From Lepidostoma basale (taxonomy: Eukaryota; Arthropoda; Insecta; Trichoptera; Lepidostomatidae), in assembly GCA_022606425.2 (NCBI GenBank), contig JAHDVF020001237.1:1199001-1263000 (forward strand): 64,000 nt of DNA, written 5' to 3'. Below, piece after piece: positions 310 through 60,344 of the stretch (its first letter is position 1; every line of letters begins with the position of its first letter). The notes beneath the pieces are model-generated. The model searched no databases. It saw only the letters and a program-made list of their open reading frames with translations, and had not been told where the DNA came from. A program made the translations under genes and the position numbers.

Positions 310-500
310 GTGTTATACGAATAAAAAACGTCTGTTTTCTAGAGTTTATTTTGTGGAAATAATATATTTCGCCTTTCTTAGAAAAAAAGGCGAAACAGGT
401 CATTTCAAAAAAAAATATTAAACCTCTAGAAAACATACGTTTTCATTCAAATTATATAAATAAGTAGTTTTTGATCATTGTTTAAAAACAATAAATTATT
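310..500. repeat. HHR fold-back family C, collapsed copy
   Basis: Both terminal arms are present (ACGTCTGTTTTCTAGAG on the left, CTCTAGAAAACATACGTTTT on the right). The centre has shrunk to a short palindrome, TTCGCCTTTCTT and its complement, so one stem II hairpin now joins the two arms. The right flank carries the usual family C end AAACAATAAATTATTG. The ribozyme core itself is lost. Confidence 0.65.
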
Positions 501-10917: not shown

Positions 10918-11065
10918 ATATTTATTGTTTCACGAGAAATGCTATAAAACTCGATATTACATATTAGATTATAATAAAAACGCCTGTTATTGAAAAGTTT
11001 TATTATATTATATGGAATTGACGTGTTACACCTTGCTAAGACATTTATCAAATGATACTGTTTCT
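10918..11065. repeat. HHR fold-back family C, degenerate
   Basis: Left terminus ATTTATTGTTTCACGAGAAA and the GTTTTATTATATTATATGG block are present. Minus strand near 11040-11055 still reads TTGATAA, the family C core. The right arm is missing. Confidence 0.55.
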
Positions 11066-12680: not shown

Positions 12681-12734
12681 AATAATATTGAATGAATAAG
12701 AAATACATTAATTATAAACAGAAAACTTTTTTTC

Positions 12735-13158
12735 TTCTATGTTAGCCATACTTTGTTATCCTGTGTTGTAGATGTTTTATATGTTTTTTTCTTTTTTATA
12801 TATATTACTTTGTATATACAACACTAACTTCAAAAAAATATTATATAATTACATATCAGACATGTTTCAGACAACTGGTCCTAATATAATATTATATGTA
12901 TAAAATAAAATAATAACACACATTAAATATATTATAAAATTGTTTACAAATATGATCAAAACATCTGTATTGTATAACATCTGCCAAAACTGATCATATT
13001 TGAAAACAATTTAATACTATTTTAAATATGTATCTTTATAATATGTATCACTGAAGAAGGACCGGTTTTCCGAAACATATTTGATATGTAATTGTAATTT
13101 TTTTTAATTAGTTGTATACACAAAATATATAAAAAATAAAGATAAAATGAAAACTTTG
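12735..13158. repeat. HHR fold-back family B
   Basis: Left TIR TTCTATGTTAGCCATACTTT, then the arm CTTTGTATATACAACACTAA. A half (-) hammerhead lies at 12853-12885 (palindrome ACATGT and AGACAACTGGTCC, core deleted). The family B spacer follows (GTTTACAAATATGATC), then an intact-looking (+) hammerhead at 13045. The right TIR is cut off where a family C element begins. Confidence 0.75.
13045..13087 (+). ncRNA. Hammerhead ribozyme, family B
   Basis: Stem I GTATCA/TGATAT (one G.T), CTGAAGA core, A, stem II GGA/TCC with a 7-nt loop, GAA, ACATAT (palindrome changed by one base from ACATGT), T at the cleavage position. Core residues are canonical. Confidence 0.65.
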
Positions 13159-13390
13159 TAATTAATACGAATGAAAACGTCAGTTTTCTATTTTCGTTAA
13201 TTACCATATTCTACCCCATTTACTAGAATAAATAAACAGCTAAAATTTCGCTACATTTGATAATGCCTTAGAAAGGCGAAACATGTCTTCTTCTATAAAA
13301 TATAATAAAACTTCTAGAAAACTGACGTTTTCATTCATATTAATTATTTTATATGGAGTTCTACATCATTGTTCAAGAACCAATAAATAA
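13158..13390. repeat. HHR fold-back family C
   Basis: Left arm ACGAATGAAAACGTCAGTTT. The left ribozyme has been replaced by 50-60 bp of unrelated sequence. The (+) hammerhead is intact at 13253. Right arm CTTCTAGAAAACTGACGTTT and terminus TTGTTCAAGAACCAATAAAT follow. It abuts the truncated end of the family B element. Confidence 0.75.
13253..13292 (+). ncRNA. Hammerhead ribozyme, family C (U3-A8 core)
   Basis: TTGATAA core at 13257-13263, T, stem II GCCTT/AAGGC with loop AGA, GAA, palindrome ACATGT at 13281-13286, C at the cleavage position. Compared with CUGAUGA, both C3 and G8 are exchanged, which keeps them complementary (U3-A8). Stem I is short (about 2 bp). Confidence 0.65.
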
Positions 13391-17499: not shown

Positions 17500-17772
17500 T
17501 GTCTTTTTCTTTTTTATTTACTTTGTATACAACACTAACTATTGAAAAAAATTAAATTAAATATCAGACATGTTTCGGACAACCCGGTCCTTCCTCAGTG
17601 ATATTATAAAGATATTTAAAATATTATAAAATTATTTACAAATATGATCAGTTTTGACAGATGTTATAAAGATTTTTATCATATTTATAATATTTTAGTG
17701 TTGTACATAAAGTATATAAAAAGAAAAAGACAAATAAAACATTTACAACACAAAGTATGGTGAACATAGAAA
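17500..17772. repeat. HHR fold-back family B
   Basis: Left arm CTTTGTATACAACACTAACT. An intact (-) hammerhead lies at 17560, then the B spacer (TTTACAAATATGATCAG, TTTGACAGATGTTATAAAG). On the right the ribozyme is deleted, but the arm TAGTGTTGTACATAAAGTAT and terminus CAACACAAAGTATGGTGAAC survive. Confidence 0.8.
17560..17605 (-). ncRNA. Hammerhead ribozyme, family B, intact type I
   Basis: Minus strand, 46 nt: stem I AATATCA pairs fully (7 bp) with TGATATT. Core CTGAGGA, A, stem II GGAC/GTCC with loop CGGGTT, GAA, self-complementary ACATGT, cleavage after C (GUC). All canonical core residues are present. The sequence is identical to 54166-54211. Stem III closes only if two copies pair through ACATGT. 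Confidence 0.85.
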
Positions 17773-24960: not shown

Positions 24961-25117
24961 CTCTGCGAAAGTAATTCGAAATGCACACGATGCGCATATC
25001 CGATAACGTTTCTGGATTATTTGATTTGTGTTTTGATTATTGTTGTATAACATTAAACAGACCATGAAGAAAATGTGATTTACTTCCGTGAATGTTTCCC
25101 GGGTTCCAACTAGTATT

Positions 25118-25512
25118 TAATATTGATGAAAACGTCCGTTTTTGTGACATGTTTCGCCTGGCTAGATTATTATCAAATATCATTCCATGATAACATGCAA
25201 CATCAAGGATTGTATAATCCCTGGATTTGGCGAGAACATTATGATACTTAAACATTATTAACTACTTAATTTGAAGCCAGGTTGTAAGATCATAATTTAT
25301 ATATTTTATTTTTTAGAAATTGTCACAACAGCTATTTTGCCAACCGGTATTTGAATCATACCAAAATCAGCTGGTGAAATAGTTGTCGCGACAATTTCTA
25401 GAAGTTTTAAAAAGTTTCATAATGCTTGAGAAATGTGAAATATGTCATTTCCATAAAACATAATAAAACTTCTAGAAAACAGACATTTTATACGTATTAA
25501 TAAGCATTATTC
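25118..25512. repeat. HHR fold-back family C split by a family E element
   Basis: Left C arm with (-) ribozyme remnant at 25118-25205 (ATGAAAACGTCCGTTTT, GACATGTTTCGCCTGG, core complement TTATCAA). Right C arm at 25419-25512 (TTTCCATAAAACATAATAAA, CTTCTAGAAAACAGACATTT). Between them sits family E. Order of events: C first, then E. Confidence 0.7.
25222..25418. repeat. HHR fold-back family E nested in C
   Basis: Left terminus GGATTTGGCGAGAACATTAT, then GATACTTAAACATTATTAAC, as at 14.65 and 48.28 kb. Inverted arms GAAATTGTCACAACAGCTAT and ATAGTTGTCGCGACAATTTC. Both hammerheads are decayed (hairpin bases changed, core lost). Confidence 0.6.
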
Positions 25513-26438: not shown

Positions 26439-26569
26439 ATATAATACTCAAGTGGTGAAAAACAAGTGTTTTTTTTATTTACAATTTAATCATGTCCTAC
26501 CACAAAGTGAATGCCGAAACAATAAATAACATACTTTTTCCTTTATGTGAAGAACAACTCCATTAATTA

Positions 26570-27010
26570 ATAAATTAAAATGAATAAAAAAAAAAGTTCG
26601 TTTTCAAACGTTTTAATTCATTTATGGGAACGACATCATTCGCCTGGGAAAGAATTATCAAAAATCTAATTATCAAAAATTTGATAAAAAAAATTAAACA
26701 TTAGAATATGCGAAACATGTTAATTTCTCAAACATTCGTGGCGATTCCCGGCGATGGCAGTATGATTGTCACTGTATTTGGTCTGGTATAGAATTTACGT
26801 TACAATCAAACGGCGATAGATTAGCTACCTATCACATGTCATAAGAATCAATATAATAGGTATAAAAAAAAACGAATTATATTATATCCAGTATTTGGGT
26901 AAAAACACCTGTTGTACCTATGCAAAGTAAAATATCTAGAAACCTGATGTTTTCATTTTTGGTAATTATAATATGGAGTTCATTGTTCAAGTAACAATAA
27001 ACAATTAATT
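26570..27010. repeat. HHR fold-back family C carrying a SINE
   Basis: Left arm and decayed ribozymes at 26570-26732 (core TTTGATAA visible on the minus strand, then GCGAAACATGTTAATT), an interposed SINE, then the right arm from about 26931 (AAAATATCTAGAAACCTGAT) to the terminus TTCAAGTAACAATAAACAAT. The same composite occurs at 40.15-40.6 kb. Confidence 0.7.
26733..26930 (+). mobile_element. tRNA-derived SINE inside family C
   Basis: Starts CATTCGTGGCGATTCCCGGC. The segment between box A and box B is deleted, fusing TTCGTGG to CGATTCCCGG. The body (GATGGCAGTATGATTGTCAC, TGGTCTGGTATAGAATTTAC) and 3' end (ACCTGTTGTACCTATGCAAA) are intact in order. Confidence 0.8.
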
Positions 27011-31160: not shown

Positions 31161-31585
31161 CAAGCGATTTCAGTAAAATCATTCGATTGTCTTAAAAACG
31201 TTATCATTAGTTAATCGGATTTTTTTTAAATAAACAGCTTTCTTAAAGTAATGATTTTTGGTAAGCATTAGATGCATTTATATTAACTTAAAATATTTAT
31301 TCACACATTTAAGTGAAAAAAATTAGGAAAAGTAATTTAAAAAGCAACGTCATTTCCCCTTCAACGTTGACAGTAAAATACATATACTCGTATTTATAAA
31401 TAATATCAGTGACATGTTTGTTTGTTTTTCTGTTTATATAACCTAAAATGAGAAAACAAATTCGACACATAAGTAATTTAGGACCAAATTGTAACATATT
31501 AATTAGTCAAAACCTCTGAGTAAAAAATCATGTGACATATGCATTAACACAGTAAAAATGAATTAAAAAAAATGATAATATGTAG
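31161..31585. other. Unrecognised AT-rich segment
   Basis: No feature recognised. Confidence 0.3.
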
Positions 31586-31587
31586 TT

Positions 31588-31690
31588 AATATGAATGAAA
31601 ACGTCCGTTTTCTAGAGGTTTTATTATAATTTATAGAAATGACACATTTCGCCTTTCTAAGGCATTATCAAATGTACCGAAAATCAACGG
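31588..31690 (-). repeat. HHR element family C, left arm
   Basis: ATATGAATGAAAACGTCCGT, CTAGAGGTTTTATTATAATT and the (-) module. The right arm is absent. Confidence 0.75.
31641..31676 (-). ncRNA. Hammerhead-like ribozyme, family C (U3-A8 core)
   Basis: Minus strand: TTGATAA core, T, stem II GCCTT/AAGGC with loop AGA, GAA, ATGTGT (palindrome broken), C. The core pair is U3-A8. Confidence 0.55.
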
Positions 31691-37379: not shown

Positions 37380-37530
37380 GTATTCTATGATATAAAATTA
37401 TTAAAACGTGTGTTTTCTAGAAGTTTTTTTTATAATTTTTGAAAATGACACATTTCGCATGTTTCAGGCATTATCAAATATTTTTATTCGTATTCGTTAC
37501 TTAATATGGAGTTTTACATAATTGTAAGAA
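37380..37530 (-). repeat. HHR fold-back family C, degenerate
   Basis: Left arm AACGTGTGTTTTCTAGAAGT, a (-) module at 37446-37485 whose minus-strand core is TTGATAA with GCCTGAAACATGC in place of stem II and GAAATGTGTC, then the right terminus GAGTTTTACATAATTG, GAAACAATAAATA. The right ribozyme arm is deleted. Confidence 0.65.
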
Positions 37531-40154: not shown

Positions 40155-40575
40155 TTTTGTTTCTTGAATAATGATGTAAATCTCCATATTAATTAATTAA
40201 TACGAAAACGTTTTTAATTATACATTAGACTGGCGAAACATGTCATTCCCTCAAACTGACGACCTTCGTGGCAAAGTGGTAAGAGCTCTGACTTCCATAC
40301 CGAAGGTCCCGGGTTCGATTCCCGGCGATGGCAGTGTGATTGTCACACTGTCTTTGGTCTGGTGTAGAATTCACGTGACAATATAATGGCGATAGATTGG
40401 CTACCTATCAGATGCCATGTGAATCATCAATATAATAGCTAAAAATAATGTGTATAGAGTAATTGGGTACAAGCGACCTGTTGTATACAAGAAAAAAAAT
40501 TATAATAAAACTTCTAGAAAACAGACGTTTTTATTCGTATTACAGCTATTTTTGTTGTTGATAAACTTAAGGCAT
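40155..40575. repeat. HHR fold-back family C carrying a SINE
   Basis: Left terminus TGTTTCTTGAATAATGATGT, arm ACGAAAACGTTTTTAATT, then CTGGCGAAACATGTCATTCC from the (+) ribozyme 3' half. A SINE follows, then the right arm TATAATAAAACTTCTAGAAA. The junction CTCAAAC before the SINE is the same as at 26.73 kb. Confidence 0.75.
40267..40499 (+). mobile_element. tRNA-derived SINE, full length
   Basis: Head TGACGACCTTCGTGGCAAAG with a mutated box A, box B GGGTTCGATTCCC, body AGTGTGATTGTCACACTGTC, GGTCTGGTGTAGAATTCACG, GGCGATAGATTGGCTACC, 3' end CGACCTGTTGTATACAAGAA and A run. Best reference copy of the GTATACAAG subfamily in the window. Confidence 0.9.
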
Positions 40576-51344: not shown

Positions 51345-51640
51345 ATATTCGTCTTCACTTTGTGTTGTGGATTCATATTTGAATAAATATAGTTACATTT
51401 TGTGTTACAACACATCCCCTCTCCTCAATCCTAATTATACCCCTTTCACTCGATGTTCCCGTTACATCTCCCCTCTCTTCAACCCTAATTATACCCCTTC
51501 CATTTTATATATAACTCGATCTCCATTTAGTATATAAGTGACAAGCTTTTTTATTTGCTTGTTAAAATTTTATACATTGATAAAGGTTACTTGTAACCGA
51601 AACATGTCTGAGTTCAGTAAAAATAAAAAGTAATTAAATA
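51345..51640 (+). repeat. HHR element family L
   Basis: Left end CTTCACTTTGTGTTGTGGAT, then CATATTTGAATAAATATAGT and an inverted TTTGTGTTACAACACA. Next come two copies of a CCCCTCTC, AACCCTAATTATACCCCTT unit and the (+) hammerhead at 51571. Related end pieces occur at 52360-52425 and 57845-57895. Confidence 0.6.
51571..51614 (+). ncRNA. Hammerhead ribozyme, family L (U3-A8 core)
   Basis: Core TTGATAA at 51577-51583, A, stem II GGTTAC/GTAACC (6 bp, loop TT), GAA, palindrome ACATGT at 51602-51607, C at the cleavage position, TGAG. Stem I is short (ACA/TGA, two pairs). It shares the U3-A8 core with family C but has an unrelated stem II. Confidence 0.65.
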
Positions 51641-51680
51641 AAACGATGTTTTTTAACTACTTCCACTTTTGTCTTTGTTT

Positions 51681-51726
51681 CGACAGCGACCGGTTTCGCC
51701 AGGCTCGCGGGCATCGACAGACTGGT
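51681..51726 (-). ncRNA. Hammerhead-like ribozyme, family D
   Basis: Minus strand: CAGT/GCTG stem I, core CTGTCGA (U for A6), T, stem II GCC/GGC with a long loop, GAA, palindrome ACCGGT, C at the cleavage position. Confidence 0.55.
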
Positions 51727-52217
51727 GAAACTATTGTAAACTTAGTCCTTTACATACACACAGATCAGGGGTGGTAAACATGATTCTATACAAAAATAAT
51801 CTTCAAATATTTATGTAAAATTTACTGAATTTAAATATTGGTATTACAGGTATTCAAGGAGGTTCGTATTCAATACAATGGATTTAAAATTTTATTATCG
51901 CTTACATATTTATATATAACGTTAAAAAAAAATGGTAATTTTGTTTTTATTATTATTGAATTTAAATATTATATGTTAAAGTTCTTGGTCCGAAAGGTTG
52001 GCATCGCCTTATTCGGTTTTCCCAAACAATTTTTCAGCAGTAATCGATTCCAGGAATATTTTTTATTTGTTTATATTGGGTATAACAACGGGGAGTAAAC
52101 AAACAGTAATTGGTCATTAAGAACTACGTGGTCAGGGGTGTTGTATTTTAGCCTTTTTATTTCTAAAATTTCTAATTTATCTAGTTTAATTTATCTACTC
52201 TTAATTTATCTAGTGTC

Positions 52218-54165: not shown

Positions 54166-54211
54166 AATATCACTGAGGAAGGACCGGGTTGTCCGAAACA
54201 TGTCTGATATT
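54166..54211 (+). ncRNA. Hammerhead ribozyme, family B, intact type I
   Basis: Identical over 46 nt to the complement of 17560-17605: stem I AATATCA/TGATATT (7 bp), CTGAGGA at 54173-54179, stem II GGAC/GTCC at 54181-54194, GAA, ACATGT, C at the cleavage position. Best candidate for a self-cleaving RNA here. Confidence 0.88.
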
Positions 54212-54955: not shown

Positions 54956-55032
54956 AACAAACAATGAATTTTAGATAATTAATACGAATGAAAACGTCAG
55001 TTTTCTAGAAGTTTTATTATATTTTATGGAAA

Positions 55033-55070
55033 TGACATGTTTCACCCTTGTAAGGCATTATTAAATGACA
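55033..55070 (-). ncRNA. Hammerhead-like ribozyme, family C
   Basis: Minus strand: TTAATAA core (A for G5 on top of the U3-A8 pair), T, GCCTTACAAGGGT in the stem II position, GAA, palindrome ACATGT, C. G5 change predicts low activity. Confidence 0.5.
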
Positions 55071-55106
55071 TTTAATAATGCTTTAGAAGGGCGAAACAAG
55101 TCATTC
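55068..55106 (+). ncRNA. Hammerhead-like ribozyme, family C
   Basis: TTAATAA core at 55072-55078, stem II GCTTT/AGGGC with two G.U pairs, GAA, ACAAGT, C. Same core change as its partner, so it probably arose by gene conversion within the palindrome. Confidence 0.5.
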
Positions 55107-55207
55107 TAATAAAATATAATAAAACTTCTAGAAAACTGACGTTTTCATTCGTATTAATTATTTAATATAGAGTTTTAAATGATTGTTCAAGAAACAATAA
55201 ATTATAA

Positions 55208-59460: not shown

Positions 59461-60045
59461 TTCTTATACGATTTAAATGAAATTAAAATATTATTCTTAT
59501 ACGATTTCAATGAAAAATTGATAAAAAAAAACCCTGCTTTTAAACCACTACATCGTTTTTTCAGTTTCCTGCAAAGGTTGTGTTTTTTTTATATTCCAGT
59601 TTGTACTTTTTGCAAAAAGTTAGCGACCACCTCCGTTTTACTAGAATTTCCCAGGACGTTTGTATTGGAGGTACATTGCATGTAGCATCGTTTTACATCG
59701 GAGAGACATTTTATGGTCCATATATCTATTTTTAGTTCGAAAGGATGGCTCCAGAGGCAAAAGTGTACCGCTACTATAATATATTTCAGCTATTTACTGC
59801 TTCATAAAACAGCTACCTATTTTTTGTGACACCGAATTATGTGGTTTTCGGAGTATTTGCTATTTGCTATATGATGTATTAAGGTACTGCACTAAGAAAT
59901 GTACCAAATTTAACTCTTTACAAGGCTTACATCCATAAAACAAAACATAAAAAAACAAGCTTTTCAATTTATTTTATTTTAATCTAATGATGTTCTGGAA
60001 CAATGTAATACGAACAAATCGTTTTTCTATTAAGATTTTCATATT
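59461..60045. other. Unrecognised AT-rich segment
   Basis: No feature recognised. Confidence 0.3.
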
Positions 60046-60127
60046 TATTGTTTCTAGAAAAATGTTATAAAACTCCATAATCAATAATTAATACAAATGA
60101 GGAAGTTTTATTATATTTTATGGGAAT

Positions 60128-60167
60128 AACATGTTTTGCCTTGGAAATATATTATCAAATGTCACAT
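60128..60167 (-). ncRNA. Hammerhead-like ribozyme, family C (U3-A8 core)
   Basis: Minus strand: TTGATAA core, weak stem II (TATATTTCCAAGGC), AAA in place of GAA, palindrome ACATGT, T. Probably dead, but keeps U3-A8. Confidence 0.5.
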
Positions 60168-60203
60168 TTGATAATGTCTTAGCATGACGAAACATGTTAC
60201 TCC
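60164..60203 (+). ncRNA. Hammerhead ribozyme, family C (U3-A8 core)
   Basis: TTGATAA at 60168-60174, T, stem II GTCTT/ATGAC (4 of 5 pairs), GAA, palindrome ACATGT at 60192-60197, T at the cleavage position. Core complete apart from the compensated C3/G8 exchange. Confidence 0.6.
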
Positions 60204-60344
60204 CATAAAATATAACGAAACTTATTGAAAACAGACGTTTTCATGCGTATAAATTATAAGATTTTCTATTTTTTTTTAACAAATGAGTTCATACTATATT
60301 CTTTCGTAAATAATTAATTTTATATAAATTATTTCTTTTTGTAC

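Follow-up and report, generated by a model that had tools for sequence, protein, structure and literature searches.

A TTGATAA hammerhead-like motif in Lepidostoma basale lies in head-to-head repeat units that are probably a non-autonomous Penelope-like pLTR pair

Family C arms face each other head to head

The window, that is the whole stretch of 64,000 nucleotides of Lepidostoma basale DNA analysed here (contig JAHDVF020001237.1, positions 1,199,001 to 1,263,000), is AT-rich (32.5% G+C) and holds no open reading frame from a start codon longer than 171 aa. One of six ORF fragments scanned in the window matches reverse transcriptase, and two ORFs from sampled loci gave hits to reverse transcriptase and mariner transposase. 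A family C arm, or pLTR-like unit, spans positions 13254..13386 on the plus strand, as determined by an nhmmer match of the arm consensus and by reading the sequence. Its motif opens with TTGATAA (13257..13263), a hammerhead-like core with U3 and A8. After an extra T at 13264 comes the stem-loop GCCTT-AGA-AAGGC (13265..13277) at the place of stem II, and the motif closes at 13278..13287 with GAA (13278-13280), the palindromic ACATGT (13281-13286) and a C at 13287, the would-be cleavage site. Position 9 is thus separated from stem II by a single additional nucleotide, as it also is in the copies read of families A, B, D, E and F. The outer part of a facing arm at 13.16 kb lies on the minus strand (13159..13190), where it forms a 32-nt inverted repeat with 13315-13346 that is 97% complementary; the motif-bearing inner part of this facing arm was looked for on that side and not found. 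Family A arms (12731-13145) directly adjoin this family C element (13.16-13.35 kb), which makes the locality a mosaic of insertions lying side by side. Further along, a tRNA-like sequence at 40262-40333 (Rfam RF00005, 32.6 bits), possibly a SINE, adjoins a family C remnant at 40.2 kb.

The earlier note on this DNA had placed TTGATAA at seven family C sites, and the letters are present at all seven: on the plus strand at 13257 and 60168, and on the minus strand near 11.05, 25.18, 26.66, 31.67 and 37.48 kb. By matching the arm consensus and reading the sequence, we delimited minus-strand arms at 10922..11053 (an A inserted after TTGATAA, and GTGTAA where GCGAAA is expected), 26547..26661 (altered ACATGT), 31578..31674 (ATGTGT in place of ACATGT) and 37401..37479 (broken stem II and altered ACATGT). 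The minus-strand arm at 25112..25189 also has a broken stem II. The copies at 13.26 and 60.17 kb had been singled out as the best ones, and they are indeed the only two that combine a stem II, GAA and ACATGT; the 60.17 kb copy falls short of that description in having T instead of C at position 17 and a stem II of 3 bp only.

By comparing the 13.1-13.4 kb segment with the window by BLAST, we found facing arms on both strands. Partner arms that had been overlooked include those at 55.07 kb and, on the minus strand, at 60.16 kb. The first belongs to a nearly complete element of head-to-head arms (54968..55202) with a centre devoid of filler, a tail on the right arm and TTAATAA in both arms, meaning that G5 is changed. 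In the head-to-head element at 60042..60257 the tail is on the left arm and the flanks carry the duplication TAAGATTTTC. Pairing of arm matches also revealed a decayed head-to-head element at 315..496.

We built the arm consensus from the window, 30 further loci (L001-L030) and 20 segments of 10 kb each taken at intervals from a single contig, and counted pairs, junctions and duplications over all loci. The consensus begins with ACATTTGATAATGCC and is ~95 nt long; beyond it, a further tail of ~40 nt ends in CAAGAAACAATAAATA. We found 33 head-to-head pairs, or 32 elements given that one was seen in two overlapping loci. The tail was on the left arm only in 12 of the 33 pairs, on the right arm only in 12 (11 without the duplicate), on neither in 9 and on both in none. 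With a looser pairing (at most 120 nt apart, the twice-seen locus included), 47 head-to-head pairs were counted versus 7 tail-to-tail and 8 tandem placings. Of the 32 centres, 5 are flush, 5 overlap, and 22 contain filler, no two of these fillers being alike; the inner end falls at arm positions 1-6 in 50 of the 64 arms. Allowing one mismatch, we observed duplications of 10 nt or longer at the flanks of 11/32 elements versus 7.3% in mismatched flanks (P = 9e-6), and those of at least 9 nt in 15/32 versus 18%; the 17 other family C elements show no flanking duplication of at least 9 nt. Moreover, the two arms of an element have 67 derived variants in common, versus 26.2 +- 4.8 with shuffled partners (0/5000 shuffles reached the observed value). 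This excess indicates that both arms stem from one source RNA lineage or that one arm was copied from the other.

A different arrangement was observed at one locus (L051, G000:C1:1463800-1464800), a direct tandem array of ~134-nt family C units. Two unit types alternate there with a period of 269 nt, and one of them has a broken ACATGT.

The window also contains copies of other hammerhead-like families. In family A, used as a control, the core is the canonical CTGAGGA and is enclosed by a 7-bp stem I (54173..54204, plus strand); further copies lie at 13051 and 20108 on the plus strand and at 17598 on the minus strand. Canonical cores were also read in family B (22295, minus; 36498, plus) and family D (48432, minus). 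The same arm-pairing analysis gave 6 head-to-head pairs for family A (two of them share an arm), 2 for B and 13 for D, with no tail-to-tail pair, 1, 0 and 3 tandem placings, respectively, and no pairs for family F.

Positions 3 and 8 show no significant covariation

By searching the 768.8-Mb assembly with GCGAAACATGT kept, we counted 13,278 exact matches of the U3-A8 motif TTGATAATN{8,20}GCGAAACATGT (form TTGATAAT…GCGAAACATGT). The same pattern read backwards gave 0 matches, which indicates that the family C motif is not due to chance. Cores with a single change amounted to 155 (C3-A8) and 274 (U3-G8), and C3-G8 to 14 matches of CTGATGAT. The earlier note held that the exchange was not shared decay, and this is borne out: U3-A8 is the family C consensus genome-wide, a C3-G8 consensus did not appear, and decay of a C3-G8 family is rejected on these counts. 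Thus, U3-A8 is the founder state of the family and does not result from the decay of CTGATGA copies.

The further claim, that positions 3 and 8 covary by compensation, did not hold up. By sorting the 14 C3-G8 matches by their letters, we found 6 same-length family C copies, the other 8 being 3 family D copies (GCCAAC…TTGGC), 3 nested insertions, 1 unrelated sequence and 1 deletion. The 6 true doubles compare with 3.2 expected under independence (Poisson P = 0.11), an expectation that is slightly too high since the single-change listings include a few D-like and nested matches and were not cleaned likewise. All 14 matches taken uncleaned would give P = 7e-6 against the same 3.2, and copies of different age inflate the number of double changes. 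Double changes therefore show no significant excess over single ones, and covariation is rejected; a fixed founder state is also one event, so that U3-A8 by itself does not amount to covariation. G5 is an essential hammerhead base, and its change to A (1,013 genome matches) is commoner than the changes at positions 3 and 8.

The exchange itself is not new, given that section 8 of PMC3088659 (Perreault et al. 2011) reports C3/G8 covarying to U3/A8 in several natural hammerheads, which were shown to be active in vitro. Both systems have C3 turned to U and G8 turned to A; they differ in that the published cases are several examples, whereas here the exchange is the consensus of two repeat families in one genome, as read from sequence alone. 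The second family, E, was read at 51577..51608 on the plus strand, where TTGATAA goes with a 6-bp stem II (GGTTAC/GTAACC), GAA, ACATGT and C. With position 3 restricted to C or U and position 8 left free, we counted 532 genome matches of family E. Among the matches listed (~100 of the 532), counted by eye, all have U3, and A8 is replaced by G8 in two and by U8 in two. Judged by its letters, family E is a second U3-A8 family, and it appears to be a better candidate than family C for the idea that a U3-A8 core cleaves; one of its copies (L015) could form a 5-bp stem I that includes two wobble pairs.

Conservation, stem I and predicted fold

We judged conservation on the window and L031-L050 only, which provide 23 unselected arms covering the core; L001-L030 were left out because they had been fetched by exact motif match. 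An arm had to align through the core to be retained, which biases the figures below towards core conservation. A6 and A9 are kept in 23/23 arms, G12 in 19/23 and G5, the least kept core base, in 18/23. The letters at positions 3 and 8 are T/A in 20 arms, C/A in 1, T/T in 1 and a gap in 1. For A and T letters, the core is somewhat better kept (132/137) than the remaining arm (793/887), while for G and C letters the core has 18/23 against 206/262. The consensus has GAA, kept in 63/69 letters, a stem II of GCCTT/AGGGC and a weak palindromic helix III, ACATGT, followed by C, an acceptable letter at position 17 (H17). TTGATAA itself corresponds to a hammerhead core only as a U3-A8 variant. The 115 stem II pair cells of the 23 arms, counted without a null, comprise 74 with the commonest pair, 15 one-sided wobbles, 23 broken, 2 compensated doubles and 1 gap. 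There is no clear ribozyme constraint on family C, as G5 shows in these arms, in the genome counts and in the element at 55.07 kb.

Because the arm starts at ACAT|TTGATAA, there is hardly any stem I: 0-3 bp in seven listed family C copies from outside L001-L030, and at most 2 bp plus an internal loop plus 3 bp in the tandem context of L051. We computed the fold of the consensus motif preceded by the upstream sequence of these tandem units, the hammerhead being taken without helix III. The hammerhead is predicted at 0.0 kcal/mol versus -11.2 kcal/mol for the minimum free energy structure, an 8-bp helix AAUGACAU/AUGUCAUU into which ACATGT is partly drawn, with UUGAUAA confined to an internal loop. 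For the canonical-core families A and F, the hammerhead lies within 0.0 and 0.5 kcal/mol of the minimum, respectively. The gap is 6.9 for canonical family B, 5.0 for E' and 8.2 for E, whose stem II was shortened by hand, and for this reason the gap of 11.2 kcal/mol in family C serves as supporting evidence only. The window copy of family D, a family with ACAGCTGT at the place of ACATGT and C, combines a canonical core with no evident stem I, so that the lack of stem I within the unit may not exclude cleavage in tandem transcripts. A search of Rfam returned no hammerhead match for family C; this silence weighs little, since a canonical copy lying in the stretch searched, that of family A at 13051, was missed too. 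The motif had 0 matches in viral contigs, and the phage search gave no match.

These data bear on the possibility that family C is a working U3-A8 hammerhead cutting as a dimer through ACATGT, in which case the exchange would be compensatory and selected. U3-A8 is the consensus of this family and of family E, and the stem II, GAA, ACATGT and C17 are all consensus letters. Tandem units exist in L051, with an upstream context that permits the interrupted stem I described above. Natural U3-A8 hammerheads are active in vitro (PMC3088659), and PMC7761336 states that minimal type I Penelope hammerheads lacking helix III may cleave as dimers. The better kept A/T letters of the core and the two compensated stem II doubles point the same way. 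On the other hand, stem I is at most 3 bp in the seven copies listed, the predicted fold is the other hairpin, the covariation of positions 3 and 8 is not significant, and the broken (23/115) and one-sided (15) stem II cells stand against only 2 compensated ones. Furthermore, G5 is no better kept than the G and C letters of the arm, G12 hardly better, and every other unit of L051 has a broken ACATGT. We therefore regard a working family C hammerhead as unlikely. With a unit that starts at ACAT directly before the core, another predicted fold preferred and G5 the most variable core base, the description of the motif as a hammerhead in the earlier note is unsupported, and so is a working family C ribozyme. 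It is quite improbable, too, that families C and E, as Penelope-type repeats, both run on dimer-cutting U3-A8 hammerheads; in that case fixation of the exchange in a working retroelement would have happened on more than one occasion, and searches fixed on CUGANGA would have missed >13,000 copies in one genome.

A Penelope-like organisation and a possible route to it

Short, non-coding, very abundant repeats with long inverted repeats are also what would be expected of a miniature inverted-repeat DNA transposon (MITE), whose likeness to a hammerhead would be coincidental. The ends of family C are unequal given the one-sided tail, the duplications vary in length, the centres vary and the tail-less arm is sometimes truncated. 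Neither symmetric ends nor a duplication of fixed length was found; a DNA MITE is thus rejected, and we consider this origin very unlikely. Least probable of all is a metazoan retrozyme, a non-autonomous element spread by hammerhead-made circular RNA: the ~134-nt units of L051 and their hammerhead-like motif recall the direct tandems of ~150-400 nt described in PMC7229834 and PMC7761336, but head-to-head pairs predominate over tandem ones (47 versus 8, L051 not included), there is no sign of a working hammerhead, and the unit has its inner end 35 nt ahead of the would-be cleavage site.

Family C is a pair of head-to-head units of ~95-135 nt, each likely the pLTR of a non-autonomous Penelope-like retroelement. 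The U3-A8 motif that opens each unit is probably a relic of the hammerhead known from such elements, with a plain hairpin rather than an RNA-cutting structure as its predicted fold. A close likeness is with Penelope Pen2a of Adineta vaga. According to PMC3846280, Penelope inserts have inverted pLTRs, one of which may bear a 31-bp tail, together with duplications of 8-10 bp and palindromes at the head-to-head pLTR junction. Family C likewise has head-to-head pLTRs, a short one-sided tail, short duplications and junction palindromes, the constant TTGATAA at the same time forming the inner half of CATTATCAAATG/CATTTGATAATG, the palindrome at the junction. Compared with Pen2a, family C has no ORF in the copies read, a unit of only ~95-135 nt, the 13,278 exact motif matches and a U3-A8 core. 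A second likeness is with Poseidon of Anolis carolinensis: according to PMC11167929, the anole Penelope-like enzyme cleaves and extends both strands, and reverse transcription has two start sites whose spacing, 30-40 nt, is that of the tail. Poseidon differs in that its hammerhead has C3 and G8 and its copies are in direct tandem. With the minimal type I Penelope hammerheads, as presented in PMC7761336, family C has in common a hammerhead-like core, a short stem II, GAA and a weak palindromic helix III; it differs by U3-A8 instead of C3-G8, a stem I that is almost absent and a competing hairpin. Family C was not described in the literature covered on hammerheads with MITEs or inverted repeats, or on inverted Penelope-like elements, a coverage that took in few subscription papers.

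GIY-YIG sequences are present in the genome. By scoring 150 of 541 GIY-YIG candidates, we found 62 genome matches, two of them in open frames of 758 aa. One of these two (C742) has inverted ends (L052, G000:C742:4500-5300, and L053, G000:C742:7150-7950) that are 92% identical over 595 nt. A GIY-YIG domain together with inverted ends suggests that the C742 element is Penelope-like, and a window segment at 51623..52025 (plus strand), 90% identical over 404 nt to positions 95-497 of L052, would then be an end fragment of such an element. The family C arm had no significant match to the sampled GIY-YIG element (best E 0.086), and no family C arm was found joined to a Penelope/GIY-YIG ORF. We also noticed CTGGCGAAACCGGTCGCTGTC in the L053 end and a related sequence, CTGACGAAACCGGTCGCTGTC, at 1761 on the plus strand of the window.

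For family C, we infer a Penelope enzyme, two-ended priming and a loss of ribozyme activity. The enzyme of an autonomous Penelope-like element would open a staggered break in AT-rich DNA, and each broken end would prime reverse transcription at its own site of the unit RNA, the two sites being ~40 nt apart. The two cDNAs would extend towards each other as far as the unit's 5' end (ACATTTGATAA), where they would be joined, often with filler. Such a route would account for the inverted arms, the one-sided tail, the variation among centres and the short duplication of the target; U3-A8 would go back to the founder RNA and have been propagated by copying. Self-priming instead of two-ended priming would equally yield inverted arms.

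Family C is best filed as a head-to-head Penelope-type pLTR pair with a hammerhead relic. A very abundant repeat can thus resemble a new ribozyme family while being arranged as the end of a Penelope-type retroelement. The 32 elements with their variable junctions are natural records of a possible joining of cDNA ends, a question left open in PMC3846280. Finally, if family E (or C) cleaved, it would provide an evolutionary test of the 3-8 pair.
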